From: Nitrospirota bacterium
GTDB lineage: Bacteria > Nitrospirota > Thermodesulfovibrionia > Thermodesulfovibrionales > Dissulfurispiraceae
Assembly (NCBI GenBank): GCA_021791055.1
Contig: JAJYXI010000028.1
Coordinates: 46,908 to 110,907 of the forward strand
Direction: 5' to 3'
Length of the DNA: 64,000 nucleotides
The notes under the pieces are model-generated. The model searched no databases. It was not told the origin of the DNA and was given only the letters and a program-made list of their open reading frames with translations. Below are positions 1,872 to 32,340 of this stretch, piece after piece (position 1 is the first letter of the stretch; each line of letters begins with the position of its first letter). Both the position numbers and the translations under genes were made by a program.

Positions 1872-3044
1872 TCAGTGCTCTAATTCCACTCCTGCAGTCT
1901 CTTCCCTTACAGAAACCGCCACTTTATAAAGTATGGTGAGCACCAGAAAGCCTACTCCCCATACTCCGATAGTAATCAAGGCCTCTGGAGCTGTAGGCCA
2001 GTATTCCGTTACCTTTTCGAACATGTTTGGCACAAAACCGCCGATAATCAAACCAAATCCCTTGTCTATCCATAAGGACACGAATAATGCTATGCAGGCA
2101 AGGGCCAGCATGCTCTCGTTCCTCCTTATGGCCGGGAATATTAAGAGCACAAGGGAAACTATTGCAAGGATGGATGATGTCCACATCAAAGGAACAAGCC
2201 TTGCATGTCCTTCAAGCCCGAAATACAGATATTTGAACGGATGTGTATGACCCGGTATGGTGCTGTAAGCAGCGGTAAAGATTTCGAGCACAAGGAAAAA
2301 CACATTGGCAATCATCGCATATGTTACAATCTTGCTTATCGCCTGAATCGCCTCCTTGCCCGGATCAAACTTTGTGAACTTCCTGACAATCAATGCAAGG
2401 ATTATAAGAAGTGCAGGGCCTCCTGCAAATGCAGATGCAAGGAATCGTGCTGCCATGATTGCGCTCAGCCAGAAATGCCTTCCGGGAAGTCCTGCATACA
2501 GAAATGCCGTAACAGTATGGATGCTGACAGCCCAGGGTATGGAGAGATATATGAGAGGCTTTACCCATGCGGCCGGTTTTACTCCCTTTTTATCTGCATG
2601 CAGCGTTGCCCATCCTATGATGATATTGAGGCCTAAATATCCGCCCAGAACAACGCTGTCCCAGAACATGATAGAGTTGGGTGTTGGATGAAGCACAACA
2701 TTCATTATCCTCATCGGCTGTCCCATGTCCACAAAAATAAAGAGGATACACATTGTGACTGCAGAGACAGCAAGAAACTCTCCCAGGATTACGATCTTGC
2801 TGAATTTCTTGAAATCATGCAGGTAATACGGGATGACCAGCATAACTGCCGATGCGGCCACACCGACAAGGAATGTGAACTGACCTATGTACAGTCCCCA
2901 TGAAACATCCCTGCTCAGCCCTGTAATCCCCAAACCCATTTTAAACTGCTGAAGATATGTAATAAAGCCTATGCCCACAACGGCAAGCAAGAAGAATATC
3001 CATGTCCAGTATCTTTTACTGCCGACTAACGCCTTCTCAAGCAT
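1872..3044 (-). CDS. dsrP: DsrP, NrfD-like integral membrane subunit of DsrMKJOP
   Basis: NrfD-like polytopic protein following DsrO; ATG 3044 preceded by GGAGGTGA. Confidence 0.9.
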   Translation of the reverse strand: MLEKALVGSKRYWTWIFFLLAVVGIGFITYLQQFKMGLGITGLSRDVSWGLYIGQFTFLVGVAASAVMLVIPYYLHDFKKFSKIVILGEFLAVSAVTMCILFIFVDMGQPMRIMNVVLHPTPNSIMFWDSVVLGGYLGLNIIIGWATLHADKKGVKPAAWVKPLIYLSIPWAVSIHTVTAFLYAGLPGRHFWLSAIMAARFLASAFAGGPALLIILALIVRKFTKFDPGKEAIQAISKIVTYAMIANVFFLVLEIFTAAYSTIPGHTHPFKYLYFGLEGHARLVPLMWTSSILAIVSLVLLIFPAIRRNESMLALACIALFVSLWIDKGFGLIIGGFVPNMFEKVTEYWPTAPEALITIGVWGVGFLVLTILYKVAVSVREETAGVELEH

Positions 3045-3864
3045 TGCTGTCACCTCCCGATATATCTGAAGTTGGTATCTCTAATATGTAATAAACACTG
3101 GGGCGTGTTCCGAGTTCTGCCTTTCTCCTGATGGTATAATTGGTCTCAAGGATTTTCCTGATCTCGGACTTGGGGTCTGCAATATCTCCGAAAACCAATG
3201 CGCCGTTGGATGCCTCCACGCATGCAGGCATTTGGCCTTTGGCAAGCCTTTCTTCGCAGAATGTGCATTTTTCCACAACACCTATCATTCTCGATGGATA
3301 TTCAGGATTCGGCTCTTTAATAAATGGTCTTGGATCCCTGTAATTAAAACTCCTTGCTCCGAAAGGACATGCTGCCATGCAGTATCTGCATCCGATGCAT
3401 CTGTGGAGGTCCTGCATTGTGATTCCGTCTTTCCTCTTGAATGTAGCCTTTGTGGGGCATACCCTTACGCATGGAGGGTTTTCGCAGTGATTGCATAGGA
3501 GCACAAAGGGCTTGTGTTTCATCTGTTCGGGCATAAATTCATTTTCCTGCCCCGGAAATGCATGCTTGTAGGTATCTGTCCATATCCACTTAACCTCATC
3601 CTTTGGATTGTCAAAGTTCGGGACATTATGGATACGGTGGCATGCATCAACTACCTTTTTATAATCTTCCTCTGTCTTGAACTTCCTCGTATCAACAACC
3701 ATTGCCCATTGCTTTGCATTCAGGAGTTCCTTTGTCTGTGAAAATTGAGAAGCCTCTAAAAAATCTCCCGGCTTGCTGAGTATCCATCCTGCGCCTATCC
3801 CAATGGTTGCCAAAAAAGTTGAAGATCCGGCTATCTTTAAAAATTGTCTTCTATCCATGCTCAT
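3037..3864 (-). CDS. dsrO: DsrO, periplasmic ferredoxin-like Fe-S subunit with Tat-like leader
   Basis: MDRRQFLKIAGSS leader, multiple 4Fe-4S motifs (CNHCENPPCVRVCP, CIGCRYCMAACP). Confidence 0.9.
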   Translation of the reverse strand: MSMDRRQFLKIAGSSTFLATIGIGAGWILSKPGDFLEASQFSQTKELLNAKQWAMVVDTRKFKTEEDYKKVVDACHRIHNVPNFDNPKDEVKWIWTDTYKHAFPGQENEFMPEQMKHKPFVLLCNHCENPPCVRVCPTKATFKRKDGITMQDLHRCIGCRYCMAACPFGARSFNYRDPRPFIKEPNPEYPSRMIGVVEKCTFCEERLAKGQMPACVEASNGALVFGDIADPKSEIRKILETNYTIRRKAELGTRPSVYYILEIPTSDISGGDSNA

Positions 3865-4259
3865 GACTTTTTCTCCTTTGGCTCGATATGACAGGTCCAG
3901 CAGTAAGGTTTTACTGCTGCATAATTGTGGCACTTATCGCAGAACTCTTTCTTGTTGGAATGGCAGTTCATGCAGGTATTCTGAAGACTTATCCTGAACT
4001 CCTTGCCCTCTGAATTTACATATATCCTCTTGCCTTCGCGGATGGCAGAATCCCTCCAGTCATTCAAGAGCTGCATATGCTCTGCCTTCATGAACTCCTT
4101 TGACTCTACGCACTTCTTTTCAGCCAATTGCTGAATAACAGGGGTATCCAATTTTGGCTCCGGTTTGGCGCTGACCTTCCCGATATTGTTGTAAAAAGGG
4201 AATGCCGCAAAAAGCACAAAGACAATTATCCCTAAGAGAATCTTGCCGCCATTATACAT
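3861..4259 (-). CDS. dsrJ: DsrJ, triheme cytochrome c
   Basis: Three CXXCH motifs (CMNCH, CDKCH, CWTCH), N-terminal TM, between DsrK and DsrO. Confidence 0.9.
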   Translation of the reverse strand: MYNGGKILLGIIVFVLFAAFPFYNNIGKVSAKPEPKLDTPVIQQLAEKKCVESKEFMKAEHMQLLNDWRDSAIREGKRIYVNSEGKEFRISLQNTCMNCHSNKKEFCDKCHNYAAVKPYCWTCHIEPKEKKS

Positions 4260-5883
4260 TTTCAGCGCCCTCCTTTTCACCGGATTTTTGGGGAAGTGGT
4301 TCAAGCCTTAGATCTTGAGTTCTCTCCTTTTCTCCCTTCATCACAAGGGCATTGGCTACAAGCTCAGAAATTCCGGCCACTCCCACCCCTGGAACCCAAT
4401 AGTCCATTGAGGCTGAAAGAGTTGCCCTGTCAATAGCACAGATATTTGCAAGCATGTTCACACCGTGCTGCTCATGTACATATCTAACGGCATTTGCCCT
4501 CGGGAAGCCGCCCCTCATTCTCAATTCCATATTTTCAGAGGCATTCAAACCGGTACCGCTTCCGCAGCAGAAGGTCTTTTCCCTTATTGTATTTTCGGGC
4601 ATTTCATAGAAATGGTTGCAGACATTTTTGATGACATACCTCGGCTCCTCGAACATTCCCATTCCCCTCGAGGTATTGCAGGAGTCGTGGAAGGTGACCT
4701 TCAAGTGGTCGTTCCTGCCCGGGTCGAGCTTAAGCTTGCCGTGTCTGATCAAGTCAGCAGTAAATTCCGATATGTGGGTCATCTTTGTTGACTTTGCGTT
4801 ATCGAACACTGTTCCTGTTATCGGAGACTTGGGCACCTCGAGAAAATCTGCAGGACCGTTCCATGTATCCATATACTGATGGAGAACCCTCCACATATGG
4901 CCGCACTCGCCGCCCAGTATCCACTTTACACCCAATCTCTTGGCCTCGGCGTAAATCTTTGAATTGAGCCTTTTCGCCATCTCGTTTGATGTGAAGAATC
5001 CGAAGTTTCCTCCTTCAGACGCGTATGTACTCCATGTATAGTCGAGTCCTAACTCGTGGAAGAGCATCAGGTAACCCATTGCAGTATAGACGCCAGGTAC
5101 GCCGAAGAGGTCTCCTGAAGGGGTGACAAACAATATCTCGGCGCCCTTTCTATTAAATGTAGGGTTGATTCTTATGCCTGTGAGGGTCTCTATGTCATCG
5201 AGCATGAACTCGATATTGCTTTTGATGGTATGCGGCTCAAGACCGAGGTGGTTGCCCTTCATGTAACAGTTTGCGACAGGTCCTGCAATCCAGCCGAGCT
5301 GTAAGCCGAGGAGATTGGTAAGCTCCCTGCCTATCATTGTAATCTCTGCCTGGTCAATGCCGTAAGGACAGAACACAGAGCAGCGGCGGCATTCGGTGCA
5401 TTGGTAGTAGTAATACCAGATCTCTTTCAATACATCCTCTGTCAGCTCCCTCGCACCAGCCGTCTTTCCGAATATTTTTCCTCCGGTGGTGAAATATTTC
5501 CTGTACACCGACCTCAGAAGCTCTGCCCTGAGAACAGGCATATTTTTGGGATCGCCGGTGCCTAAATAGAAATGGCATTTATCTGCACATGCGCCGCACC
5601 TAACGCATATATCCATAAAGACATGGAATGAGCGGTATTTCTGGAGCCTTTCTTTTATGCCATTTATGACTGTCTCTTTCCAGTTTTCTGGGAGGTTCCA
5701 ATTCTCATCGACCGGTTTCCATTCGTGGATATTCGGAAAGCCTACGGTCTCGAGATCCTTTGCCTTTGAAGGATGGCAATACATATGCTCCCTGATTTCA
5801 ACTGGGGTATCCATCCAATCTGTCTTTGGTGTTTTAAAGTCAATTTTTAACAGTTCAGCAGGTTTTGCAGTAAACTTTGCCAT
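4252..5883 (-). CDS. dsrK: DsrK, HdrD-like Fe-S subunit
   Basis: 4Fe-4S motifs plus CCG-type C-terminal region (FHDSCNTSRG, TFCCGSGTG). Confidence 0.93.
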   Translation of the reverse strand: MAKFTAKPAELLKIDFKTPKTDWMDTPVEIREHMYCHPSKAKDLETVGFPNIHEWKPVDENWNLPENWKETVINGIKERLQKYRSFHVFMDICVRCGACADKCHFYLGTGDPKNMPVLRAELLRSVYRKYFTTGGKIFGKTAGARELTEDVLKEIWYYYYQCTECRRCSVFCPYGIDQAEITMIGRELTNLLGLQLGWIAGPVANCYMKGNHLGLEPHTIKSNIEFMLDDIETLTGIRINPTFNRKGAEILFVTPSGDLFGVPGVYTAMGYLMLFHELGLDYTWSTYASEGGNFGFFTSNEMAKRLNSKIYAEAKRLGVKWILGGECGHMWRVLHQYMDTWNGPADFLEVPKSPITGTVFDNAKSTKMTHISEFTADLIRHGKLKLDPGRNDHLKVTFHDSCNTSRGMGMFEEPRYVIKNVCNHFYEMPENTIREKTFCCGSGTGLNASENMELRMRGGFPRANAVRYVHEQHGVNMLANICAIDRATLSASMDYWVPGVGVAGISELVANALVMKGEKERTQDLRLEPLPQKSGEKEGAENV

Positions 5884-5885
5884 AC

Positions 5886-6878
5886 TTACTCCTTTTCTAC
5901 CGGTATTTCAGCCATTTTCATTTTATCCCTAAAATCTTCCTCGTACTCCTCGTATGTATGCACCTTTACAGGGTAATTCCATGGATTGACATGCCTGAAC
6001 TCACGGCTGTTTCCGAGAAGGTTTCTCGTGGGGCTTAGGAAGACGCCACCCATGTGAACCAGTTTACTAAACGGGAAATATGCGAATAATGTGCTCACAA
6101 AGAGCAGATGAATATAGAATATAACACCTAACCCTTTTGGAATAACAGGATTAAAGCTCACCAACCCCATGGCAAGCTCCTTTACCCCCACAATATCGGT
6201 TTTTAAGAAATATCTCATCAGCATCCCTGTGGTAGCAATCCCTATAATCAGGAAAAGCGGGAAATAGTCGGCTGATAGAGAGATATATCGCACCTGCGGG
6301 ATATATATCCTCCTCAGGAAGAGGAATGTTACGGCAGATAGAAGCACTACGCCGGTCATAAAAAACCTCGGCACGCCTATCTGCAGAAAGCCGTCAAAGG
6401 TCTCCAACAGATGCAGAAAAAACGGTGTTGGCTCTGCAAAAAGCCTTATATGTCTTAGTAAGACAATCAGGAAAGAGTAGTGAAATGCGATGCCAGCCAG
6501 CCAGAGCCATTTATCAGAGCCATAAACGAGTCTGGAGCTGTCTTTCATCTCGCCTTTCAGGTTTCGGAACAATGACCTGAATAAAAACACTTCCATGGCC
6601 ATTCTGCCTACGACATGCAGTGTGCTTGACGGATTTTCGAGTTTATTCTGCTTGATCCACGGAAGAGATTTCTGCTGTCCGCATGTAGTTGTTATGCAGA
6701 AGGGTACCGGCGACTTGGCCCATTTTAAAACACGGTATATAACCCCTATGATAAAGATAAAGACAGCAGCATAAGGGATGATGACTCCGAAAAGGAAGTG
6801 CAGACTTCCTCCGCTTACACCCACCATGGCAAGCAGGACAAGCGCTATTACTGCAACAAATGGAAACAAGATCTTCAT
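5886..6878 (-). CDS. dsrM: DsrM, cytochrome b-type membrane subunit
   Basis: NarI-like multi-TM protein preceding DsrK. Confidence 0.9.
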   Translation of the reverse strand: MKILFPFVAVIALVLLAMVGVSGGSLHFLFGVIIPYAAVFIFIIGVIYRVLKWAKSPVPFCITTTCGQQKSLPWIKQNKLENPSSTLHVVGRMAMEVFLFRSLFRNLKGEMKDSSRLVYGSDKWLWLAGIAFHYSFLIVLLRHIRLFAEPTPFFLHLLETFDGFLQIGVPRFFMTGVVLLSAVTFLFLRRIYIPQVRYISLSADYFPLFLIIGIATTGMLMRYFLKTDIVGVKELAMGLVSFNPVIPKGLGVIFYIHLLFVSTLFAYFPFSKLVHMGGVFLSPTRNLLGNSREFRHVNPWNYPVKVHTYEEYEEDFRDKMKMAEIPVEKE

Positions 6879-7445
6879 CTACTCACCTCTTTCTAATTTA
6901 TTGCCTTGTAAAACTTCTTCAAGGTCAATCTTGCGATACTGTGCCTCAAATATAAGGTTTGCCCTTTCCAACAGCTTGGAAGTCATATTCCTGAGCTCAT
7001 TAGCCTTAAGGTCATAAATCTTTTCCCTGCATTTCATATATATATCGAAGGACAATAACATGAGATCATCCGCCCTGCGCTCAAATGCAAGCAGCTCATC
7101 AGCGAATTGAGATTCTTTGTTCTCGTTTATCAACTCTTCTCTGACAACTCTTTTTAGCTGGATAACAAAGGCAAGAGCCTGCGAAGGTGTGAAATCCTGA
7201 ATTGCCCTTATCCTGATAATATTATCAAGAAATGTTGATATTTTATCTGTATCGCCGCCGTTTAAAAGCTCTTCAAGGAGAGAATCCATTCCATTGTAAA
7301 TGGTGCTGCCTACCGGATTGGCAAATTGGTCTTTTTGTCTTTTTAGAAAGTTAGCAGTGTCTTGGGGATAAGTTTCCAGCACTGAATCAAACCACTTTTT
7401 CAAGATGGTCTGTCTCTTTTTTAACAGGAGTTCATTCAGGTTCAT
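6879..7445 (-). CDS. RsbRD/RsbT co-antagonist N-terminal-domain-like protein
   Basis: All-helical 188 aa with conserved W and helix pattern; abuts dsrM. Confidence 0.65.
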   Translation of the reverse strand: MNLNELLLKKRQTILKKWFDSVLETYPQDTANFLKRQKDQFANPVGSTIYNGMDSLLEELLNGGDTDKISTFLDNIIRIRAIQDFTPSQALAFVIQLKRVVREELINENKESQFADELLAFERRADDLMLLSFDIYMKCREKIYDLKANELRNMTSKLLERANLIFEAQYRKIDLEEVLQGNKLERGE

Positions 7446-7601
7446 ATTCTGTAAGACGCCCCTCCTCCGCCTTCGAATAGATTATTTTTCTGCTGTACAT
7501 CTGTCTGAATAGTTCAAGGCCTGAATTATTCAAGGCTGGTACCCCAAATGAATTTATTTTATTATCCATGGGGGGCACCAAACCTTAAACATTATTTGTG
7601 A

Positions 7602-7937
7602 CTACACGCAACCTGTTGGTTTTGGAAGTCCTGCATATCTACATGCCTGTTTTGCAGGTCCGTCTGGGAAGAGCTCATAAAGGTATTTTGTGTTGCCTTT
7701 CTCCGGGCCCATTACCTTGGCGATCTCTTTTACGAGAATCTTTATCATTGGAGCGATCTGGTACTTTGCATAGTAGTCCCTCAGGAAGTTGATGACCTCC
7801 CAATGGGCCTCTGTGAGATCCAGCCCATCTCCCTTTGCCATCTGCTCTCCGAGATCCTTTGTCCAGTCATCAAGGTTTACAAGATACCCATCCTCGTCCA
7901 CCTCAATCTGTTTTCCCTGAAAATCAACTGTTGGCAT
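7602..7937 (-). CDS. dsrC: DsrC sulfur carrier
   Basis: C-terminal CRYAGLPKPTGCV (Cx10C, penultimate Cys) and WTKDLGEQMA region. Confidence 0.95.
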   Translation of the reverse strand: MPTVDFQGKQIEVDEDGYLVNLDDWTKDLGEQMAKGDGLDLTEAHWEVINFLRDYYAKYQIAPMIKILVKEIAKVMGPEKGNTKYLYELFPDGPAKQACRYAGLPKPTGCV

Positions 7938-8081
7938 TGTGCTACCTCCTTTCTCTGTTTTAATTTTGTTGAAGATTATACTACTATCGATGGTTTTTAT
8001 TCAAAACAAAAGTGGTAAGAAAATAATATAGACTTATAAGCCAGGTCAAATAAAATAATATTATATATATATTTACTATTT

Positions 8082-9164
8082 TTATTTATTCTGTTTATTA
8101 ACTATCTTATTTATTGCTTCTTTAACTATTTCGCTAACCGTCTTCTTTATCAGCTCTCCATCATGATAAAAATTTATTGTGCTGGCATCGTTTACAAGGC
8201 TGCTTATATCCTCCGAAAGGCTCTTCTCTCCCAGGATTCCGACAACCCATGCGGTATGTCCCCTGACAGAAGGATTGCTGTCCTTTATCATTAGCTGCAA
8301 ATCTTTTAATATAAATTTAACAAGGTCCGGCCTGACAGAAGCTATCCGCCCCATTGCCCATATTACGCCAGCCCTGAACATCTCTTCATCACGGAAAGAC
8401 CATACTATGGGAATAATATCGCTGAATTCATCGGGATTGTTTCTGATTATCTCACCCAGCATCTCTGCAGCGCTCCAGCCGATACCGCCTGACTCCTCTC
8501 CCATAGACCATAACAGCCTTCTTATCGTATCCCTGATAACATCGATTCTGCCTCTGGCCTGCCCAATGGAAAATTCGCCTGCCACTACCCCCATAGCCTC
8601 TATAGCCCTCCAGCTTATGACATCATCTTTGTCATATGCCAGAGAGATAATGCGCCTTATCACGCCTTTATCATTCTTTGCTATCTCTGCAATTTCATTA
8701 TACGAGCGGGTCTTCAGAAGATCCCCGATTCTGCCCTTCAAATCACCCTTTTTATTCGTCTGCCCTGTCTCTACAGCTATTTTTGAATTCATGTCATTAT
8801 AAGCCTTTGTCTCAATGCCCTGAGATTGTATCATAGCAGGCCCCTCGAGCTTTACGAAAACAAGCCTTCCCCCCGCTTCACCCATGCCTGTTGAATAAAG
8901 CCTCATATGGTTTTTAAAGTCATACTCCATATCCTCGGCCTGATAATCCACACCTTCTCCGATAAGGTCTATATCCCAGTCTCCCTTTGCCATTGCGAGT
9001 GCCTCCATGTAAGCCTCGCCGGTGTTATGACCTGTAGGGTCGCACACATAAACTGCACCGCAGTCGCATTTCCCGCTTAGCACTTCACCAAACTCCGTCC
9101 TCGTTTCCTCTGGACGGGCAACATAACGCCCGCAAAACGGACATTCAGGCGGATACTTGTTCAT
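8082..9164 (-). CDS. HEAT/PBS-lyase-like repeat protein with N-terminal zinc-ribbon-like region
   Basis: CPFCGRY...CDCGAVYVCDPTGHNTGEAY N-terminus, helical repeats; inside dsr locus. Confidence 0.7.
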   Translation of the reverse strand: MNKYPPECPFCGRYVARPEETRTEFGEVLSGKCDCGAVYVCDPTGHNTGEAYMEALAMAKGDWDIDLIGEGVDYQAEDMEYDFKNHMRLYSTGMGEAGGRLVFVKLEGPAMIQSQGIETKAYNDMNSKIAVETGQTNKKGDLKGRIGDLLKTRSYNEIAEIAKNDKGVIRRIISLAYDKDDVISWRAIEAMGVVAGEFSIGQARGRIDVIRDTIRRLLWSMGEESGGIGWSAAEMLGEIIRNNPDEFSDIIPIVWSFRDEEMFRAGVIWAMGRIASVRPDLVKFILKDLQLMIKDSNPSVRGHTAWVVGILGEKSLSEDISSLVNDASTINFYHDGELIKKTVSEIVKEAINKIVNKQNK

Positions 9165-9165
9165 T

Positions 9166-10569
9166 TTATTTTCTAAACTCCTTTGCCTTATTTATGAGCC
9201 CTCTCACCCATTCTTCTGCACCGAGAGCATGGATGTGTGTATATGTGGCAAAAACATTTTTATAACAAATTCCATCCGTCTTATCCTTTATTCCATGTCC
9301 CCTCTTCATTCTAAAGGCTGTATAAACCTCCCCTTGCCCCCCCTTGATAAGGGGAGAAGGAGGGGGAGTGGCAACAGCCGAATAATGAAATTCATGACCG
9401 TGAAGCACGGTTCCAACGGGATAAAAGGGATTCTCACGCTCGACCTCGACAATGGTATATCCGTGGGCCTGGGGCTTGCTTTTCATCTCAAATATGATGG
9501 GGAAAATACCCACCATGGGATATTTCTTGTCATCGACTATAATGGAGTCACCCAGGAACATGAGCCCTCCGCATTCAGCATAAATGGGGAGTCCGTTTCC
9601 CGCTGCACTGCGCACTGAATCTCTGAAGCTCATATTCTCTGCAAGCCTTAATGCATTTGTCTCAGGAAAGCCACCTCCTATGTAAAGGGCATCAATATCG
9701 GGCAGGCTGCTGTCTGAAAGGGCATTTATCTCCACAATCTCAGCACCGTTCTTTTCCAGTTCCTCAATGTTTTCAGGATAATAAAACTGGAATGCCGAAT
9801 CCCTGATGACGCCGATCCTTACAGTAATCCCCCCATTCCCCCCTTTAATAAAGGGGGGTAAGGGGGGATTTAATGGCTCTGCCTGCATTGCGATATTCAG
9901 GATTTTGTCAAGGTCGAGGTATTTCCTTGCAATCTCTTCCACGAATGAGATTGCATTTTCTGTATCATGATGCTCATGGTATGGTGTTAAGCCCATATGG
10001 CGCTCCGGGAATTCGCCCGAATGCAATCTCGGTATGGCGCCGAGCACAGGCAACGAGCAATATTTTTCTATGGATGCACGCACCACCGATTCATGGCGAC
10101 TGCCCGCCACCTGATTCAAAACAACTCCCTTTATATTCACATCCTTGTCGAGATTCATGCAGCCCAGTACTACGGCTGCGGATGTCCTTGTCATCTTTGT
10201 ACAGTCAACAATCAGTATGACAGGTGATTTTAAGAGTTTTGCGAGCTCTGCAGTGCTGTATGAGCCTTCTATATCCATACCGTCATACAGACCCCTGTTG
10301 CCCTCTATAATTGCTATATCGCCTCTAAAATGGGAAATAAAGGAATCCAGCACCTTTTCCTTTGAGATAAGGAAGGGGTCGAGGTTGTAACATGGATTTT
10401 TAGCAGCAATGGACATCCATCCTGCGTCTATGAAGTCAGGCCCCTTTTTAAATGGAATGACCTTCAGCCCTTTCTGTGACCTTAATGCTGCAATTACGCC
10501 GAGGGAGAGGGTTGTTTTTCCGCTTCCGCCCCTGACGCCGGCAATAACCAATCGGGGGTAATTATTCAT
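9166..10569 (-). CDS. dsrN: Cobyrinate a,c-diamide synthase family amidotransferase (CobB/DsrN)
   Basis: VIAGVRGGSGKTTLSLG P-loop; class I GATase YAECGGLMFLG; dsr context. Confidence 0.9.
   Translation of the reverse strand: MNNYPRLVIAGVRGGSGKTTLSLGVIAALRSQKGLKVIPFKKGPDFIDAGWMSIAAKNPCYNLDPFLISKEKVLDSFISHFRGDIAIIEGNRGLYDGMDIEGSYSTAELAKLLKSPVILIVDCTKMTRTSAAVVLGCMNLDKDVNIKGVVLNQVAGSRHESVVRASIEKYCSLPVLGAIPRLHSGEFPERHMGLTPYHEHHDTENAISFVEEIARKYLDLDKILNIAMQAEPLNPPLPPFIKGGNGGITVRIGVIRDSAFQFYYPENIEELEKNGAEIVEINALSDSSLPDIDALYIGGGFPETNALRLAENMSFRDSVRSAAGNGLPIYAECGGLMFLGDSIIVDDKKYPMVGIFPIIFEMKSKPQAHGYTIVEVERENPFYPVGTVLHGHEFHYSAVATPPPSPLIKGGQGEVYTAFRMKRGHGIKDKTDGICYKNVFATYTHIHALGAEEWVRGLINKAKEFRK
9326..9370 (-). 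repeat. Family A in-frame palindromic element, copy 1 (in dsrN)
   Basis: Encodes ...PPPSPLIKGGQGEV. Confidence 0.8.
9827..9871 (-). repeat. Family A in-frame palindromic element, copy 2 (in dsrN)
   Basis: Core CCCCCCTTTAATAAAGGGGGG; encodes NPPLPPFIKGGNGGI. Confidence 0.85.
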
Positions 10570-10643
10570 AAGTTTTTTTATTATACTCTATAAGACTTAA
10601 AATTAAGTATCGTTTGCTGCGAAACAACTAATCTGTAAAAATA

Positions 10644-10680
10644 AAAAGGCAGCTCCCACTTTTTTGTGGACTGCCTTTAA
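10644..10680 (-). terminator. Hairpin terminator downstream of dsrD
   Basis: AAAGGCAGTCCAC...GTGGGAGCTGCCTTTTTA on minus strand. Confidence 0.65.
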
Positions 10681-10702
10681 AATTGAAATAATAAGTAATC
10701 TA

Positions 10703-10918
10703 TTATTTGGGGGGGATCTCTACAAAACTGCCGCCAAAGTATGTATAAATAAGCTTGCCTTCGTCTATTAAATCTCTTAACGCATCCTTCACCTCATCCC
10801 TTGAAATGCCTGCTTCGGCAGAGATTGTCTTCTGAATATCGCTTGATTTGAGTTTCTTTTTCCCCGTGGACTTTTCTACCAATTCGTAAATCTTTTTCTT
10901 TACTTCTTCCTTTTCCAT
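10703..10918 (-). CDS. dsrD: DsrD winged-helix protein
   Basis: 71 aa; KKIYELVEKSTGKKKLKSSDIQK...LIYTYFGGSFVEIP; directly after dsrB. Confidence 0.92.
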   Translation of the reverse strand: MEKEEVKKKIYELVEKSTGKKKLKSSDIQKTISAEAGISRDEVKDALRDLIDEGKLIYTYFGGSFVEIPPK

Positions 10919-10932
10919 CTTGCACCCCTTTC

Positions 10933-10999
10933 AGTGATTGGTGTCAGTGATTAGTGTCAGTCTGTTTTTTCACTGACACCGTTCACTGACACTGTCACT
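10933..10999. repeat. Repeat-rich inverted repeat between dsrB and dsrD
   Basis: GTGTCAGTGATTAGTGTCAGT (10941-10961) / ACTGACACCGTTCACTGACAC (10972-10992), 18/21 pairing. Confidence 0.8.
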
Positions 11000-11008
11000 A
11001 TTAAATTT

Positions 11009-12079
11009 TTACCACTTAAATGTTGCTGCTGTTCTGAACGTCTCCCTTGCAATAACAAAGTCATCAATGTGCTGGAAGGTGAACGGCAATCCTGTAACCT
11101 TGAAGAACTTCTCCCAGCCTATCCTCTCGATCCATTCGCCGACCCTTTCATGCTTCTTGGCGTCTGCAACATAGGCGTCAAGGATCTTCCTCACTGCTGC
11201 AGTAACCTCAGGCCATCTTGGAGGGTTGTTCTTGATAAAAGGAATGGCCAGCTTTGAGAACTTGGGATTGCTTCTGAGGTTTCCTACCTTACCGCCTACC
11301 ACAATTGCAACACCGTCATACTCGGGGTCGTGAATTTCAATCGGAGGGCACACGGTAAAGCAGTTACCGCAGTACATACATTTATCCGCATTGATCTTCA
11401 CGCTCTTCTTTGAAGGCTCAGGGCTTATTGCGCCTGTAGGACATGCGCCTATTGTTGAAGGGACTTCGCACATGTTCTTAACCTTGTCATGATCAATTGT
11501 CGGAACCTTCCTGTGGATGGCAACAACGGCAATATCGGAGCAATGAACGGCACCGCACATATTAACGCAGCATGCAACAGCCATTCTTACCTTATTCGGC
11601 AAGGTTTTTGTGGTGAAGTAGTCGGCAAACTCATCCATCAATACCTTGACAATGCCCGATGCGTCGGACGCTGCTGAATGGCAGTGAATCCATCCCTGTG
11701 TGTGAACGATATTGCTTATCATGTTGCCGATACCGCCAACCATGTATTTTTTATCTTTGAGCTCTTTCTGTAACGGCTCAAGATTCTTCTCATCGGAGAC
11801 AAGAAACTCCACATTGTTCCTTGTTGTGAATCTGATATAGCCTCCGCAGTATTTCTCGGCAATGGCAGACATATCCCTTATGGTATCTGTGCTGAGGAGT
11901 CTTGGAGATGCTACTCTCACAGACCAAATCTTATCACCGCTGTTTGATACATGCACCATAACGCCGGGATTGATGATCTCATGATATTTCCAGTTTCCAT
12001 AGTTTTTCTGGATTACCGGAGGTAAAAAATCCTTATAATGAGGCGGGCCTATATCTGTTTTTCTCTGTGGTAATGCCAT
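11009..12079 (-). CDS. dsrB: Dissimilatory sulfite reductase beta subunit
   Basis: DsrB-type siroheme motifs and inserted ferredoxin domain [13 protein letters not shown]. Confidence 0.96.
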
Positions 12080-12112
12080 AACTTTCCTCCTTATATTTAA
12101 TGTTTTTAATGT

Positions 12113-13297
12113 TTATTTCTGCAAATCTGCTTCTGTCCAGAAGAAGAATGGGTCTCTTCTCGGCTCTTTTATCTGCTGAGGCTGAGGCTCAACACCGATA
12201 AACTCGAGGAACTCCCTCATTCCCTTTCTGATAATAAGCTCGCCGATCCTCTCCCTGTTCTTTCCGTACTCATCCCAGAACTCCCACATCTTCCTGATAA
12301 GGTCTTTAAACTCATCATATGGCGGCTCCATCTTTATGAATGGGACGATTACCCATGAGAGTGTTGCACCGATAACAAACGGCGCCTTGCTGCCGATAAG
12401 GATTGTTGCGCCCTTCTCGCCGGTCGGCTTCAATGCCTTTGTCATCTTTGCGATACAGTGCATACACCTTATGCAGTCGGCATCATTAATCTTTAATTCC
12501 TTTCCGTCATAGCTCATGCACTTGCTGGGGCACATATTCACAATCTCTTCCTGAATATTCATGCCCTTCTTTGCATAATTTGCAACCTCTGCCTGATCGA
12601 CTGCTATATTGCCTTTCCATGTGCCTATAATTGAGCAGTCTGCACGGGCGATGGATGCGATACAGTCAACTGCGCATCCTGCTGTCTTGAATTTAAACTT
12701 ATACGGGAATGCAGGCCTGTGCATCTCGTCCTGCCACTCCTGTGTTATGCTGTATGTAATATCGAGAGTATCTATATTTGCCCATTCACACCTTGCAGGG
12801 CCGACGCAGCAGCTTGGCGTCCTCAAAGCAGAGCCTGAACCTCCAAGGTCCCAGCCGCGTGATGAGAACTCTGCAAATATCGGCTCAAGATTTTCGGTGT
12901 TTGTTCCGAGGAGAACAAGGTCTCCGGTAGAGCCGTGAAGGTTTGTAAGACCGCTTCCATATTTATCCCAGATATCGCACATCTCATTAAGGAACTTGGA
13001 TGTGTAGAAAAAACCTGAGATGGAGTTGATTCTCACAGTATGGAAATTTGCAACATTGGGGAATTCATCAGGAAGGGATGAATACCTTCCTATAACACCT
13101 GAACCATAACCGCGAACACCGACTATACCGCCATGCTTCCAGTAACCGCGCTTGTCCCTGTAAGACTTCTCAAGCTGTCCAAGCTCGTCGGCAGCCATAT
13201 CGCTTCTTGCAGCCGCTTTCTTGATTTCTGTTACAAAACTTGGGAATGGACCTTTTTCCAGCTCGTCCAACAGCGGAGTCTCATACTTCTTTGGCAT
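12113..13297 (-). CDS. dsrA: Dissimilatory sulfite reductase alpha subunit
   Basis: DsrA motifs (GSGSALRTPSCCVGPARCEWAN); ferredoxin domain CIRCMHCI. Confidence 0.96.
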   Translation of the reverse strand: MPKKYETPLLDELEKGPFPSFVTEIKKAAARSDMAADELGQLEKSYRDKRGYWKHGGIVGVRGYGSGVIGRYSSLPDEFPNVANFHTVRINSISGFFYTSKFLNEMCDIWDKYGSGLTNLHGSTGDLVLLGTNTENLEPIFAEFSSRGWDLGGSGSALRTPSCCVGPARCEWANIDTLDITYSITQEWQDEMHRPAFPYKFKFKTAGCAVDCIASIARADCSIIGTWKGNIAVDQAEVANYAKKGMNIQEEIVNMCPSKCMSYDGKELKINDADCIRCMHCIAKMTKALKPTGEKGATILIGSKAPFVIGATLSWVIVPFIKMEPPYDEFKDLIRKMWEFWDEYGKNRERIGELIIRKGMREFLEFIGVEPQPQQIKEPRRDPFFFWTEADLQK

Positions 13298-13358
13298 AAA
13301 ATCCTCCTCTTTATTTGATTTTGAAAGGCTTAAAAGATTCACCAAAAAGGCAATACAG

Positions 13359-23267: not shown

Positions 23268-23840
23268 TTGACATCTATTGGTGTAAATGCAAAAATGAGT
23301 AAAGATATGATAGACAAAAGGTTTGAACAGAAATTTATTATAAGATTTGCGGGTATCATACTGGCAGGTTTGGGGATAATCTTCCTGATTCTTTTCCTCG
23401 CAATTCCACGGCCCGACATCAAGGATTATACGAGGATCTCCCAGGCATTTATAGAAGCCGATGATACCCTCTCAAGCATTATCGGCATTGCCGTAGCAAT
23501 AGATGCCATTGTAATATCCGCAATAGTCGTCCTGACCGCTGTTCTCGCATCACACAAAATAGCAGGACCTCTGTACAGGTTTCAAAAAGTCCTCCATGAG
23601 GTCATGACTGAGAGAAAGGCAAAACATATACAACTCAGAAAAGGCGATCAGGCTGTGGATACTGCAAGAAGCCTTAGTTTCATGATAGAAGGTCTCAAAG
23701 GAAATTTTGATGCCATTAAATGTGCTTACGAGGAATTTGAAGAGGCAAAAAAAGGATTTGATAACACACCGGAGTCGCTGAAAAACCTGAAGGAAAAGGT
23801 GGAAACCCTTGGCAAGGCTATCGAAAAGTTCAGTCTTTAG
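23268..23840 (+). CDS. Membrane protein with HAMP-like region, no output domain
   Basis: Two TM segments and ASHKIAGPLYRFQKVLHEV; helical tail. Confidence 0.6.
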   Translation: MTSIGVNAKMSKDMIDKRFEQKFIIRFAGIILAGLGIIFLILFLAIPRPDIKDYTRISQAFIEADDTLSSIIGIAVAIDAIVISAIVVLTAVLASHKIAGPLYRFQKVLHEVMTERKAKHIQLRKGDQAVDTARSLSFMIEGLKGNFDAIKCAYEEFEEAKKGFDNTPESLKNLKEKVETLGKAIEKFSL

Positions 23841-24621
23841 AAGCCTTAGAAAGGGCATTTATAATGTGAGGCCTTTGAAATGGCTCTTAATGTCGCTCAT
23901 TATTTTAGTTCCATTACTGTCAGCAGCAAAAAAACAGACTCACGACTTCGAGGGTAAATGTTCATCCTGCCATCTTTCGCTTGCAGAGGGTAAAAAGATT
24001 TTTGTAAGAGAGATAGATTTTTTGTGCAGCGGCTGTCACAAAGAGCCAGCTATATCGCACCCATCAGGCATAAAGCCATCCATGCCCATACCGGATAAAT
24101 TCCCTCTCGACTGGGCAGGCAGACTCACATGTTCGACATGCCACGATATCCATGGCAATAATGCTGATCTCCTGAGAGTCGAAAAGCCGGGCAGGGCATT
24201 CTGTCACGCATGTCATAAAGGGCTTATGGAAAAACATGGCGGCACAGACCAGCCTGTGCATTCAGGCAGGTCTGTAAATACCATGGGCTTTGAAGTCATA
24301 GACCCGTCAACTCCGATGGATAAACTGTCCAAAGAATGCATGGGATGTCACGACAGTATTCTTGGAAGCGCAGCAGATACAAGAATAGGTTCCGGCATAT
24401 GGAACCACGGTAACGGTGTTTCTCACCCGATAGGTACCGATTATATGAAGGCATACAGAAAAGGGCGTCTGAAACATCCTTCCAGTATAAACCCTGCCAT
24501 AAGGCTGTTTAACGGGAGGCTCGGCTGCGGCTCGTGTCATAACATGTACTCCAGGGAAAAGAAACATCTCGTAACAAGCAACAAGGGCAGCGCGCTGTGC
24601 CTATCATGCCATATTGTGTGA
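23809..24621 (+). CDS. Heptaheme c-type cytochrome
   Basis: Seven CXXCH motifs (CSSCH, CSGCH, CSTCH, CHACH, CMGCH, CGSCH, CLSCH); N-terminal TM/signal. Confidence 0.9.
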   Translation: MARLSKSSVFRSLRKGIYNVRPLKWLLMSLIILVPLLSAAKKQTHDFEGKCSSCHLSLAEGKKIFVREIDFLCSGCHKEPAISHPSGIKPSMPIPDKFPLDWAGRLTCSTCHDIHGNNADLLRVEKPGRAFCHACHKGLMEKHGGTDQPVHSGRSVNTMGFEVIDPSTPMDKLSKECMGCHDSILGSAADTRIGSGIWNHGNGVSHPIGTDYMKAYRKGRLKHPSSINPAIRLFNGRLGCGSCHNMYSREKKHLVTSNKGSALCLSCHIV

Positions 24622-24630
24622 GGAGGAGAT

Positions 24631-25194
24631 TTGAATAAGAGAAAACACTATTTCATCAACCGGGGATTCCAGGGAAGGTTTATACTCTGCTTCCTGATAT
24701 ACGGCTTATTTGTCACCCTGAGCACATCTATTTTAATCTGGCATTTTTCAGCAGCGAATTTTGACAAGTTTGTTTACAGGTCTCATATCCTGCCGATAAC
24801 CCCATGGGAAGCGATTTTGCCAGTAATGATAAAGACCATTGTCGTCTCCTCTGCAGTACTGGTTATTTCTGCATATCTGCTCGCTAATTTCATATTTAAA
24901 AAAATCTCCGGAGAACTCAGGCGCTTAAATGATGCCATGGAAAATATCGGCAAAGGCAATCTCACCGTAACGATACCCGGAAACAACATAAAGGAAATCA
25001 ATGAAGCCCTGCAGATGTTTATTGAAAAAACAAGAGAGGATGTAACTTCATTAAAGGTTATCCAGAAAGAGATGAAACACCTCGTTGATAGGGCAGGAGA
25101 CGCTCAAGATAAAGAAACCGCTTCTAAGGCTATGGAGAACATAAGCAAAAAATTTATAGAAAACCTGTCTGCCTGCCGGATTAAAGTGGAATAA
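24631..25194 (+). CDS. HAMP-domain membrane protein lacking recognizable output domain
   Basis: Two TM segments, FKKISGELRRLNDAMENIGKGNLTVTIPG HAMP-like. Confidence 0.7.
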   Translation: MNKRKHYFINRGFQGRFILCFLIYGLFVTLSTSILIWHFSAANFDKFVYRSHILPITPWEAILPVMIKTIVVSSAVLVISAYLLANFIFKKISGELRRLNDAMENIGKGNLTVTIPGNNIKEINEALQMFIEKTREDVTSLKVIQKEMKHLVDRAGDAQDKETASKAMENISKKFIENLSACRIKVE

Positions 25195-27983: not shown

Positions 27984-30900
27984 ATGTTTGCGCCATATAA
28001 TCTTTTCTTCATAGTTTTATGCTATCTCATTCTCCTTTTTGCAGTAGCATATTATGCTGAGAAAAAGGAGAAGGCAGGCAGAAGCATTGTTAACAATCCT
28101 TATATTTATTCCCTTTCCCTCGCTGTATACTGCACATCATGGACATTCTACGGAAGCGTTGGCAAGGCAGCCACTTCAGGCCTGTCGTTCCTTACGACAT
28201 ACATGGGCCCTACCCTCATGGCCGCCATATGGCTTGTTGTACTGAAGAAGATCGTGAGGCTTGCAAAGGCAAACAGGATTACCACAGTATCGGACTTTAT
28301 AGGGTCAAGATACGGCAAGTCCCTTTTCCTTTCTGCACTGGTCACAATTGTTGCTGTGGTAGGCATTATTCCATACCTCGGATTGCAGATAAAGGCAATT
28401 ATAAGCACATTCACGATTATATCCGGAGAGATAAAGGGAAGTGCGGCAGCAGGACTTTTTATTACATCAATACTCGGGATATTCGCAATCATCTTTGGCG
28501 CCAGACGGCTCGATTCTTCAGAGAGGCACGGCGGACTTGTCTTTGCAATCGCCTTTGAATCGATTGTTAAACTTATTGCATTTATTGCAGTTGGTGTTTT
28601 TGTAACATTTGGACTGTTTGACGGATTTGGCGATATATTTGACAGGATTAAGAATTCAGAGCACTCTGTTCTGCTTTTTCTTGGGACAGGAACAGGAACG
28701 ACCTATTTCGAATGGTTTGCGCTCCTCTTTCTTTCCATGATGGCAATAATGTTTCTTCCTCGACAGTTCCAGATGGCGGTTGTAGAGAACTATGACGAAG
28801 AACACATAACAAAGGCTGCATGGCTTTTCCCGCTCTATCTCTTCCTCATAAACATCTTTGTATTACCAATAGCCTTCGGTGGACTTTTACAGGGTAGCAC
28901 AGAAAAAATGGCAGATTACTTTGTCCTGACCATACCTCTGAATAATGGGGAGAAATACCTGTCGCTCCTTGCATTTATAGGCGGATTTTCTGCTGCAACA
29001 GGCATGGTAATTGTCGAAGCTCTGGCTTTAAGCACCATGGTAATGAACAGCTTAATCATGCCCGCGCTCATAAATTTTCATGATGCCCCTAAATTCCCGT
29101 CGGTAGTCTTGAATATAAAGAGGCTCGTCATCTTGGGGATTGTCTTTTCAGGCTACTTTTTCGCAACATCCATCGGCGAGTTTTACAGCCTCGTGGATAT
29201 GGGTCTTAAATCCTTTGAGGCAGTGACACTTTTTGCTCCTGCATTCTTTTTAGGCCTTTACTGGAAAAAAGGTACAAAGATGGGAGCGACGGCAGGGCTT
29301 ATTGCCGGTTTTAGCGTATGGTTCTACACCCTTATAGTACCTGCATTGATTAAGGCAGGCATTGTAAAAAATATAGGCATTGTCGCAATCCTCGCCAACT
29401 CCGAGATGTTCAATCCTCACAGCTTATTCGGCGTTCATGAGCTCGGCAAATGGGGAAACTCCCTTTTCTGGGGCATGTTTTTTAATCTTTTGTTTTATGT
29501 CGGAGTATCTGTATTTACGAGGCAGTCAAAGGACGAAGAGATCCAGTCACTTATATTTGTGGAATCCTATGAAAGCGTAAAAGAGCTTGCCGGCGGAGGC
29601 TCTTACACTGTTAATGACATAGAAGACATTCTCGCACAATACCTTGGCAGGACAGATGCAAGGGAGGCGATATTCGGTTTTTTGTCGAGGAAAAACAAAA
29701 AGCGCGATGAGCTCACATCAAAAGAGCTTTTTGAGTTGAGAGACGAGTCAGAAAAGATTCTCTCAGGAGCAATAGGCTCCTCCATTGCAGCGATTATCTT
29801 CGAAAACAAACTCGTTTTAACAGAAAAAGAAAGGGGAGAGCTTTCAGAGTCCATCAAGCACATTACAGAGAGCCTGAGATTTTCCCGCCAGGAGCTTGCA
29901 TCAGCAAACAGAGAACTGTCGTATCTTAAGGAGTTCAGCGAAAACATCATAGAGAGCGCACCTGTAGGCATTGCCACCATAGACGCGTTATTGAAGGTCA
30001 ATTACTGGAACAGAGAAATAGAGACAATCACAGGCATAAGGAGATCGGATGCATACAATAAATCAATAATAGTATTAATGCCGTGGATTCCCGTCGATAT
30101 ACTCTTACGGAATGAACAGAAAGAGATATCATTCCAGACCCCTGACCACCAGACATTTAATATAAATATCAGCCCCTTTAAAGATTCATCTGGATCTTTG
30201 GCAGGAGGATATGTTGTTATCCTCGAAGAAATAACAGAAAAGAAAAAGATGGAGGAGCAGTTATTGCAGACATCAAAGCTCGCAAGCATAGGCAAACTGA
30301 CCGCAGGCATATCCCACGAAATCGGTAATCCCCTTGCTTCCATCTCATCCCTGGTGCAAGAACTCAAGGAATTACAAATAAAATCCAAAGAAAAGGGGTC
30401 TGCGGAAAATTTTTCAGAGAAAAATTTTCCGGGGTATGGCGATGCAGAATTTACAGAGGAATCACTGAAGACCATAAACAGCCATATAGAAAGGATTGCA
30501 AAGATAGTCCGCAGTCTCGGCGACTTTGCAAGAATATCTTCTGCAGAAAAAACAGCATCCGATATTTCGGAAATCCTTGAACGCACCATTAACTTGGTGA
30601 AATACGACAAGAGGTTTAAGAATATCCAGCTTGTAACCGAGATAGGGGATATTCCCGGGTTAGTGATCAATCCCGACCAGATACAGCAGGTATTTTTAAA
30701 TCTCATGCTCAATGCCCTCGATGCAATGCCTGAAGGCGGCAATCTCAATATCAAAATGGAAAAGACAGGAGATCTTATTGAAATAGTCTTCAGCGATACA
30801 GGTGTCGGGATTGACGAATCAGTGATTGACAGAATATTCGATCCGTTCTTCACCACAAAGCCCCTTGGCAAAGGCACCGGATTAGGCCTCAGCATCTGCT

Positions 30901-31001
30901 ATGGTATAATCAGGGAGCATAGCGGGACAATAACAGTAAAGAGCAAAAGGGGAGAAGGGACTAAGTTTGTAATCAGGCTTCCAGTGCAATCCAATGTCTG
31001 A
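27984..31001 (+). CDS. Sodium/solute symporter fused to PAS-histidine kinase (CbrA-like)
   Basis: N-terminal 12+ TM SSS domain, PAS, SHEIGNPLASISSLVQEL H-box, GTGLGLSICYGI. Confidence 0.92.
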   Translation: MFAPYNLFFIVLCYLILLFAVAYYAEKKEKAGRSIVNNPYIYSLSLAVYCTSWTFYGSVGKAATSGLSFLTTYMGPTLMAAIWLVVLKKIVRLAKANRITTVSDFIGSRYGKSLFLSALVTIVAVVGIIPYLGLQIKAIISTFTIISGEIKGSAAAGLFITSILGIFAIIFGARRLDSSERHGGLVFAIAFESIVKLIAFIAVGVFVTFGLFDGFGDIFDRIKNSEHSVLLFLGTGTGTTYFEWFALLFLSMMAIMFLPRQFQMAVVENYDEEHITKAAWLFPLYLFLINIFVLPIAFGGLLQGSTEKMADYFVLTIPLNNGEKYLSLLAFIGGFSAATGMVIVEALALSTMVMNSLIMPALINFHDAPKFPSVVLNIKRLVILGIVFSGYFFATSIGEFYSLVDMGLKSFEAVTLFAPAFFLGLYWKKGTKMGATAGLIAGFSVWFYTLIVPALIKAGIVKNIGIVAILANSEMFNPHSLFGVHELGKWGNSLFWGMFFNLLFYVGVSVFTRQSKDEEIQSLIFVESYESVKELAGGGSYTVNDIEDILAQYLGRTDAREAIFGFLSRKNKKRDELTSKELFELRDESEKILSGAIGSSIAAIIFENKLVLTEKERGELSESIKHITESLRFSRQELASANRELSYLKEFSENIIESAPVGIATIDALLKVNYWNREIETITGIRRSDAYNKSIIVLMPWIPVDILLRNEQKEISFQTPDHQTFNINISPFKDSSGSLAGGYVVILEEITEKKKMEEQLLQTSKLASIGKLTAGISHEIGNPLASISSLVQELKELQIKSKEKGSAENFSEKNFPGYGDAEFTEESLKTINSHIERIAKIVRSLGDFARISSAEKTASDISEILERTINLVKYDKRFKNIQLVTEIGDIPGLVINPDQIQQVFLNLMLNALDAMPEGGNLNIKMEKTGDLIEIVFSDTGVGIDESVIDRIFDPFFTTKPLGKGTGLGLSICYGIIREHSGTITVKSKRGEGTKFVIRLPVQSNV
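30394..30435 (+). repeat. Family B in-frame palindromic element, copy 1 (histidine kinase)
   Basis: CGGAAAATTTTTC-aga-GAAAAATTTTCCG perfect stem; encodes KGSAENFSEKNFPG. Confidence 0.8.
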
Positions 31002-32340
31002 ACGGTTACTTATAGTTGAAGATGAAGAGACGCTCAGCGCATCCCTGAAAAGGGTTTTTTTAAGGGACGGCTATGAGGTGGATACCTCAGGCAGTGCAGA
31101 GTCCGGGCTCGAAATGCTCGAAAACGGCCTTTACGACCTCATAATAACAGACATCATCCTTCCGGGAATCGACGGCATAGAGCTCCTGAGAAGAATAAAA
31201 GAAAAATTTCCTGAAAAAATTGTAATTATAGTCACGGCATACGCATCTCTGGAGACCGCTGTAGAAGCGCTAAGAGCAGGCGCTTATGATTATGTTGTAA
31301 AGCCGATAATCCATGAAGAGATAAAGCAGATTGTGAAGAATGCCCTAAAACAGAGGGCGCTTCAGGCAGAAAACGTCCTCCTTAAAAAGCAGATAGAGAG
31401 ACAATACGACTTCAGCAGAATTATAGGCGAAAGTCCCTCGATGCAGAAGATAATTAACGAGGTAAAGAAGATTGCAGATGCAAGGAGCAATGTGCTTTTG
31501 CTGGGAGAGACAGGGACAGGAAAAGAACTCGTTTCAAGGGCTATCCACTTTAACAGCAGCAGGGCGGACAAGCCTTTTATACCCATAAACTGCAGCGCCA
31601 TCCCTGAAAATCTCCTTGAGTCAGAGCTCTTCGGCCATGTAAGAGGAGCTTTTACAGGAGCGATAACCTCAAAGAAAGGGCTTTTTGAAGAGGCAAACGG
31701 AGGCACGGTATTTCTTGATGAGATAGGGGATTTGAGCATTGGGCTCCAATCAAAACTACTGCGTGTTCTGGAAGATCAGGAGATAAGGCCTGTTGGCGGA
31801 ACACAGAGTATTAAGGTTGATCTCAGGTTTATTACCGCCACAAACAGGGATATAGAGAAAGCTGTAAAAGAAGGCAGTTTCAGGGAAGACCTCTTTTACA
31901 GGATAAATGTTATTACCATAAAGCTTCCGCCTTTGAGGGAAAGGAAGGAAGACATAGAACTTCTTGTCAGATTTTTTATCCAAAAATATTCGAAAGATCT
32001 CGGCAAGGCAGTAAATGAAATAGACGATGCGGCATTGAAGATTCTCAAGACATATCACTGGCATGGCAATATAAGGGAGCTGCAGAATATAATCGAAAGG
32101 GCAATTTTAATATCGGAGGACGGCATTATTAAAGTCGAGCATTTACCCGAAGGCATAAAGGCAGAAGGGTCATTTCTGCATCAGGCCGTTACCGGCAAGC
32201 TCTCCATTGAGGATTACACCAAGGCATTTATACAGAAATACCAGAATGAATTCAATGAGCAGCAGCTTGCGGACATGCTCGGCATTACAAGGAAATCCCT
32301 CTGGGAAAAGAGAAAGCGATGGGGAATAACGAGGGAATAA
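30994..32340 (+). CDS. NtrC-family sigma54-dependent response regulator
   Basis: Receiver domain, GETGTGKELVSRAIH, ELFGHVRGAFTGA (GAFTGA), Fis-like C-terminus. Confidence 0.96.
   Translation: MSERLLIVEDEETLSASLKRVFLRDGYEVDTSGSAESGLEMLENGLYDLIITDIILPGIDGIELLRRIKEKFPEKIVIIVTAYASLETAVEALRAGAYDYVVKPIIHEEIKQIVKNALKQRALQAENVLLKKQIERQYDFSRIIGESPSMQKIINEVKKIADARSNVLLLGETGTGKELVSRAIHFNSSRADKPFIPINCSAIPENLLESELFGHVRGAFTGAITSKKGLFEEANGGTVFLDEIGDLSIGLQSKLLRVLEDQEIRPVGGTQSIKVDLRFITATNRDIEKAVKEGSFREDLFYRINVITIKLPPLRERKEDIELLVRFFIQKYSKDLGKAVNEIDDAALKILKTYHWHGNIRELQNIIERAILISEDGIIKVEHLPEGIKAEGSFLHQAVTGKLSIEDYTKAFIQKYQNEFNEQQLADMLGITRKSLWEKRKRWGITRE

Follow-up and report, generated by a model that had tools for sequence, protein, structure and literature searches.

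A heptaheme cytochrome c flanked by two small HAMP proteins: a gene triad kept together across several bacterial phyla

How mineral-, electrode- or sulfur-respiring bacteria sense the flow of electrons through their periplasmic cytochromes is a largely open question. MCPs and kinases which carry a c-type heme domain of their own exist, for example DcrA of Desulfovibrio. In E. coli the pentaheme cytochrome TorC binds to the periplasmic domain of the sensor kinase TorS (PMC11727998), and in Geobacter sulfurreducens electrode sensing proceeds via the MCP, CheW, CheA and diguanylate cyclase of the Esn network (PMC5585712). Ca. Tenderia and Gallionella have an undecaheme complex for electron transfer, Uet (PMC10734462, PMC5371394). 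The membrane protein Af1503 of Archaeoglobus fulgidus contains a HAMP domain and lacks typical input and output domains, and its HAMP is functional when grafted into a receptor (PMC3585426). We analyzed a stretch of 64,000 nucleotides from a Nitrospirota bacterium (contig JAJYXI010000028.1, assembly GCA_021791055.1), hereafter the window, in which a heptaheme cytochrome gene (cyt7) lies between genes for two small HAMP proteins, HAMP1 and HAMP2. No description of this gene set was found in the open-licence papers that we searched; the parts are known, while their conserved combination appears to be new. The features of the locus are as follows.

23295–23840, + strand: HAMP1, inner-membrane protein of 181 aa; alternative TTG start at 23268
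Parts of HAMP1: TM1 at about 23334–23402; periplasmic loop of 20 aa with conserved Tyr45; TM2 at about 23460–23546; HAMP at about 23547–23702; C-terminal coil
23547–23702, + strand: HAMP region of HAMP1 (SHKIAGPLYR ... RKGDQ ... A), the best conserved part of the protein
23866–24621, + strand: heptaheme c-type cytochrome of 251 aa, counted from GTG 23866; N-terminal hydrophobic helix; alternative TTG start at 23809
24631–25194, + strand: HAMP2, inner-membrane protein of 187 aa with two TM helices, HAMP and C-terminal coil
Conserved residues of HAMP2: His52, within the short loop in the periplasm; Gln14 (invariant), in the cytoplasmic segment at the N terminus
24892–25038, + strand: HAMP region of HAMP2, degenerate in the clade of the window, where SGELRRL replaces GPLYR

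The three genes of the window and their products

All three reading frames reported in a first-pass annotation of this DNA are present in the window, and the gap of 9 bp that it gave between the cytochrome gene and HAMP2 is correct. Two other distances were revised, as both had been counted from the first TTG of the frame. HAMP1 had been placed 5 bp after the stop codon of the transglutaminase gene, whereas its preferred start, ATG 23295, lies 31 bp past that stop; similarly, an overlap of 32 bp between HAMP1 and the cytochrome gene depends on TTG 23809, and the preferred GTG 23866 leaves a gap of 25 bp beyond the end of HAMP1. We consider GTG 23866 the better start because it adjoins the hydrophobic signal or anchor helix and avoids the overlap with HAMP1; TTG 23809, which also has a ribosome-site-like stretch, is a possible alternative. 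The triad is preceded by a gene for a TgpA/transglutaminase protein and followed by a gyrase A-like gene (named by eye), and then by a transporter-type histidine kinase and a sigma-54 response regulator (27984–32340; the kinase has an N-terminal sodium:solute symporter domain).

TM prediction gave two hydrophobic helices each in HAMP1 and HAMP2, after which come a HAMP-like segment and a short coiled coil. As for the HAMP-like regions claimed previously, the copies of the window are themselves weak matches: Pfam HAMP (PF00672) matched residues 90–124 of HAMP2 at 1.5e-4 with 22.5 bits, which is below the cut-off of 25, and a Pfam search of HAMP1 gave no HAMP match and nothing else relevant. Profile support came from their homologs, since 21 of 66 members of the HAMP1 family and 23 of 62 members of the HAMP2 family match Pfam HAMP at E≤0.01 (best 3e-9), and HAMP is by far the commonest Pfam match in both families. 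At the family level, profile comparison confirmed the HAMP identity of both proteins. An AlphaFold model of HAMP1 (mean pLDDT 90; helices 8–36, 45–106, 121–153 and 159–179) comprises a TM helix, a second long helix running into the first HAMP helix, a connector of 14 residues (107–120), the second HAMP helix and a terminal helix, and so contains the two connector-joined helices after a TM helix which are characteristic of HAMP. A PDB fold search with HAMP1 returned nothing significant, a NarQ fragment appearing only at E 9.3. The residues G91, P92, R115 and D118 are each present in 65 of 66 members of the HAMP1 family, and AS1, the first HAMP helix, has the highest information content among the regions of this protein. 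In the HAMP2 family Gln14 is found in 62 of 62 members and the periplasmic His52 in 54 of 62. Residues resembling Tyr45 were also read by eye in small HAMP proteins without a cytochrome, so Tyr45 is not cytochrome-specific. No conserved heme-ligating His was found within the TM helices.

Profile searches detected no kinase, cyclase, MCP or other output domain in HAMP1 or HAMP2, in agreement with what had been noted from the sequence at first sight. Homologs of both proteins stay about 190 aa long, and neither protein has the cytoplasmic output which marks the full-length HAMP receptors (histidine kinases, MCPs and cyclases). Nor was any small HAMP protein beside the cytochrome seen to be fused to an output; the long ORFs that were matched are ordinary sensor proteins with a HAMP of their own.

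The cytochrome contains exactly seven CXXCH motifs (CSSCH, CSGCH, CSTCH, CHACH, CMGCH, CGSCH and CLSCH), the number originally given for it, and matches Pfam Paired_CXXCH_1, the doubled-CXXCH family (PF09699), at 3.4e-20, above the cut-off. The Cys and His residues of the motifs are all invariant across the aligned cytochromes. Seven further His residues outside the motifs (H26, H65, H96, H124, H132, H181 and H187), one per heme, are 88–100% conserved; since a conserved extra His is thus available to all seven hemes, bis-His ligation is predicted for each of them. Membership of the quinol dehydrogenases (NapC/NirT/NrfH) was rejected, as the cytochrome gave just a local NrfH match of 31 residues with 22.5 bits against a cut-off of 134. 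A PDB fold search with the cytochrome gave no significant match.

Conservation and descent of the triad

Among 40 relatives the triad was complete in seven, counting the genome of the window itself (the six others are G014, G019, G023, G031, G036 and G038). An earlier contig scan with HAMP1 alone as query had given no matches. A cytochrome alignment served as query against a collection of 84,980 species and yielded 252 confirmed relatives, 80 of which were kept for analysis, and the flanking HAMP proteins were scored with a profile built from small HAMP proteins. The order HAMP1-cyt7-HAMP2 was found at 69 of the 81 cytochrome loci in this set. Six of the remaining loci have a HAMP gene upstream only, three downstream only and three on neither side, and the loci without a full triad include truncated contigs and ORF-calling variants. 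Seven CXXCH motifs are present in the cytochromes of 78 of the 81 loci. Going by record titles, triads span Nitrospirota, Pseudomonadota, Desulfobacterota/Thermodesulfobacteriota, Acidobacteriota, Aminicenantota, Omnitrophota and a few other groups; in the class of the window the cytochrome occurs in 55 of 200 genomes and 37 of 108 genera, with an uneven distribution even inside the genus of the window. The retention of the order in these 69 loci and seven relatives argues that the triad is not a product of chance, and in several bacterial phyla the three genes have stayed together as a unit. The first-pass annotation had staked its proposal on conserved gene order and on profile support for the HAMP similarity; the former was found directly and the latter once homologs were used.

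In a tree of 90 rows, built with a quick method and containing some long branches, HAMP1 forms one side of a branch with an SH-aLRT value of 91, and HAMP2 lies opposite with non-triad HAMPs among it. This implies that the pair diverged before the module spread and is not a recent duplication; judged by these sequences, HAMP1 and HAMP2 each belong to an old family of their own. Distances among HAMP1, the cytochrome and HAMP2 co-vary (r 0.75–0.84, Mantel p 0.0005), a sign of co-inheritance which shared phylogeny alone could give and which is no proof of interaction. Heptaheme relatives without flanking HAMP genes also exist (L036, L094 and L107, the first two of which begin near a contig end). 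Those at L094 and L107 sit amid other multiheme cytochromes, which suits an electron carrier.

Genes around the triad

Two-component genes were more frequent at positions 2–4 from the module than at positions ≥6, with 49/388 versus 14/399 over all loci (p=2e-6), 26/200 versus 10/201 over non-redundant loci (p=0.005) and p of about 0.05–0.07 with one large clade collapsed, these p values being uncorrected, with several gene classes tried and ORFs called mechanically. No two-component gene lies within four genes of the module at 53 of 77 loci. Two-component genes that are close and on the same strand, as in an operon, were found at L033, L058, L062, L069 and L103, of which L069 has the order HK-RR-HAMP1-cyt7-HAMP2-RR(HD-GYP). 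Furthermore, we observed a sister unit, in which a pentaheme Paired_CXXCH cytochrome is immediately followed by an output-less small HAMP protein, at 18 of 18 loci (L027, L028 and L178–L193). At L027 the genes that come next encode a PAS/GAF kinase with no predicted TM helix and a sigma-54-type regulator; most copies of the pair stand alone. No output partner is conserved across the triad copies.

The truncated HAMP proteins had also been proposed to act on a heme-motif MCP encoded at 54445 of the window, and this part of the proposal found no support. The gene at 54445–56070 does encode a real HAMP and MCPsignal protein, whose periplasmic part contains one CXXCH (CLMCH, residue 153). No link between this MCP and the module was seen; the neighbourhood survey found no MCP gene near any triad copy, and an MCP search of the genome gave 15 matches, that at 54445 included. 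CheW co-occurrence was discarded as a test of MCP dependence, since CheW is found in 187 of 200 genomes of the class and does not discriminate. It may be noted that G067 (87% complete) has the module and no CheW match.

Another cytochrome with at least four hemes lies within four genes at 37 of 77 loci, and many copies are located in multiheme islands. Neither cytochrome nor NHL genes were enriched near the module relative to positions further out, perhaps because the islands are wide. In several Nitrospirota a barrel-like protein, an NHL lipoprotein, an undecaheme cytochrome and a protein of 250 aa precede HAMP1, cyt7 and HAMP2; the opposite strand encodes a regulator and a kinase. The protein of about 250 aa (L088:8626–9387 and equivalents) is secreted-looking, has no Pfam match and is conserved directly 5′ of HAMP1; its equivalents stand at position −2 in eight loci and at −3 in one. 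A four-heme cytochrome of about 125–180 aa lies directly 3′ of HAMP2 at some ten loci (L032, L057, L076, L078, L083, L084, L093, L095, L103 and L104), sometimes together with a 13-heme cytochrome upstream of HAMP1. In three genomes from the family of the window (G001, G015 and G184; loci L150, L151 and L152) a triad lies between dsrB and dsrN, the dsr genes being named by eye except for the sulfite reductase subunit, which was tested with a profile. The window has its own dissimilatory sulfite reductase cluster (1872–13345, − strand) with no triad in it and a gap of 440 bp at the dsrB-dsrN site; the triad of the window differs from the dsr-embedded ones and lies 10 kb from this cluster. In some cases the module immediately precedes an operon for type II secretion (L064, Pfam T2SSE). 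Small output-less HAMP proteins were also seen, by eye, between SurA-like isomerase and peptidase-like genes without any cytochrome (L007, L009, L012 and L018).

Possible roles and comparison with known systems

From the genes, their conserved order, their HAMP and heme features and their neighbourhoods, all of which were directly observed, we propose with a probability of roughly 0.45 that the triad is a split redox receptor, a membrane unit of three gene products which senses the redox state or occupancy of the cytochrome and signals in trans. HAMP1, the cytochrome and HAMP2 would form one complex, in which the cytochrome, presumably periplasmic and tethered close to the inner membrane through an N-terminal helix, would dock on the short periplasmic loops of the two HAMP proteins. 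The latter, as non-identical two-helix proteins, may pair through cytoplasmic HAMP bundles ending in a short coiled coil. The respiratory chain that is served, putatively extracellular electron conduits in some genomes and possibly sulfite reduction in others, would set the electron load or occupancy of the cytochrome and thereby shift the HAMP bundle. With no output domain on either HAMP protein, the signal would have to act in trans, on histidine kinases or other separate proteins. Strong conservation of the HAMP, the two-component neighbours and the L027 operon make us favour this reading, and the idea of the first-pass annotation that redox state is relayed through truncated HAMPs in trans stands as the best single reading rather than as a demonstration, about two thirds of the copies having no two-component gene nearby. 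Our probability is held down by the lack of an output domain and of a fixed partner, by those 53 loci, by the absence of a nearby MCP, by the degenerate HAMP motifs in the clade of the window, by the mostly free-standing pentaheme sister unit and by the heptaheme relatives without HAMP genes. It is quite possible, though less likely than not, that the triad represents a class of split redox receptor not described before, in which a heptaheme carrier of the respiratory chain also serves as sensory subunit to a heteromeric HAMP receptor that lacks an output and drives unlinked kinases; cells could then read directly how much electron flux goes to extracellular or sulfur acceptors.

Several of these observations fit a scaffold for electron transfer as well, in which HAMP1 and HAMP2 would be anchors placing the cytochrome between inner-membrane donors and periplasmic or outer-membrane acceptors, and the HAMP would be a dimerising coiled coil and no switch. 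The multiheme neighbours at nearly half of the loci, the Uet-like gene order, the triads between dsrB and dsrN, the heptaheme relatives that lack flanking HAMP genes, the conserved His52 of HAMP2 and the missing output partner are all in line with such a role. On the other hand, the TM helices have no conserved heme-ligating His inside them, an anchor has no need of a HAMP stretch as its best conserved part, and other cytochromes are equally frequent near the module and further out, so that we hold this role to be somewhat less probable than the split receptor, to which it is a close rival; the two are not mutually exclusive. A part in assembly, in which the small HAMP proteins belong to general inner-membrane machinery that matures, exports or quality-controls envelope proteins and here serves the cytochrome, would explain their relatives beside SurA-like and peptidase-like genes and the modules 5′ of type II secretion genes. 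We consider it improbable, as such neighbours vary from triad to triad, in contrast to the heptaheme cytochrome, which is conserved. Decayed receptors which lost their outputs and persist by chance beside the cytochrome could account for the failure of HAMP1 to match Pfam HAMP and for the sub-threshold score of HAMP2 in the window, but intact frames in dozens of genomes across phyla, the retained order, the single old split between HAMP1 and HAMP2 and the strongly conserved motif residues contradict this, and we give it hardly any credence.

Under the split-receptor reading the triad would show HAMP bundles working without an attached output, and otherwise a HAMP that does not signal, either of which is unusual. 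As a whole, the triad seems to be a means, not described before, by which cells couple electron flow outside the inner membrane and perhaps report on it. Being present across phyla, in multiheme islands and in some dsr operons, it is a compact target for testing how electron flow is sensed.

The described systems each share a part of this arrangement. The undecaheme cytochrome, NHL proteins and barrel-like protein adjoining the module in several Nitrospirota resemble Uet (PMC10734462), but the described complex has no HAMP pair or heptaheme cytochrome, and the module also occurs far from Uet-like genes, as in the window, where its neighbours are the transglutaminase-like and gyrA-like genes. 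The Esn network ties sensing to growth on electrodes, without a cytochrome subunit (PMC5585712). Af1503 has TM helices and a C-terminal HAMP without output, as have HAMP1 and HAMP2, but is a single orphan for which no cytochrome partner or second HAMP protein is described (PMC3585426). TorC and TorS, which set a precedent for a multiheme cytochrome that acts on a membrane sensor, pair such a cytochrome with a membrane signalling protein, through a physical link which is known for them and would be expected for the triad. TorS, however, is a kinase of full length that detects through a periplasmic domain and TorC is of the NapC/NirT type, whereas the putative receptors of the triad are output-less with short loops and its cytochrome is of the Paired_CXXCH type. 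Finally, MCPs and kinases such as DcrA, and the MCP at 54445 of the window, resemble the triad in combining a c-type heme motif with membrane helices and a HAMP; in them a single chain with one heme motif comprises the heme, the receptor and the output, whereas the triad has seven hemes and its parts are split over separate chains.
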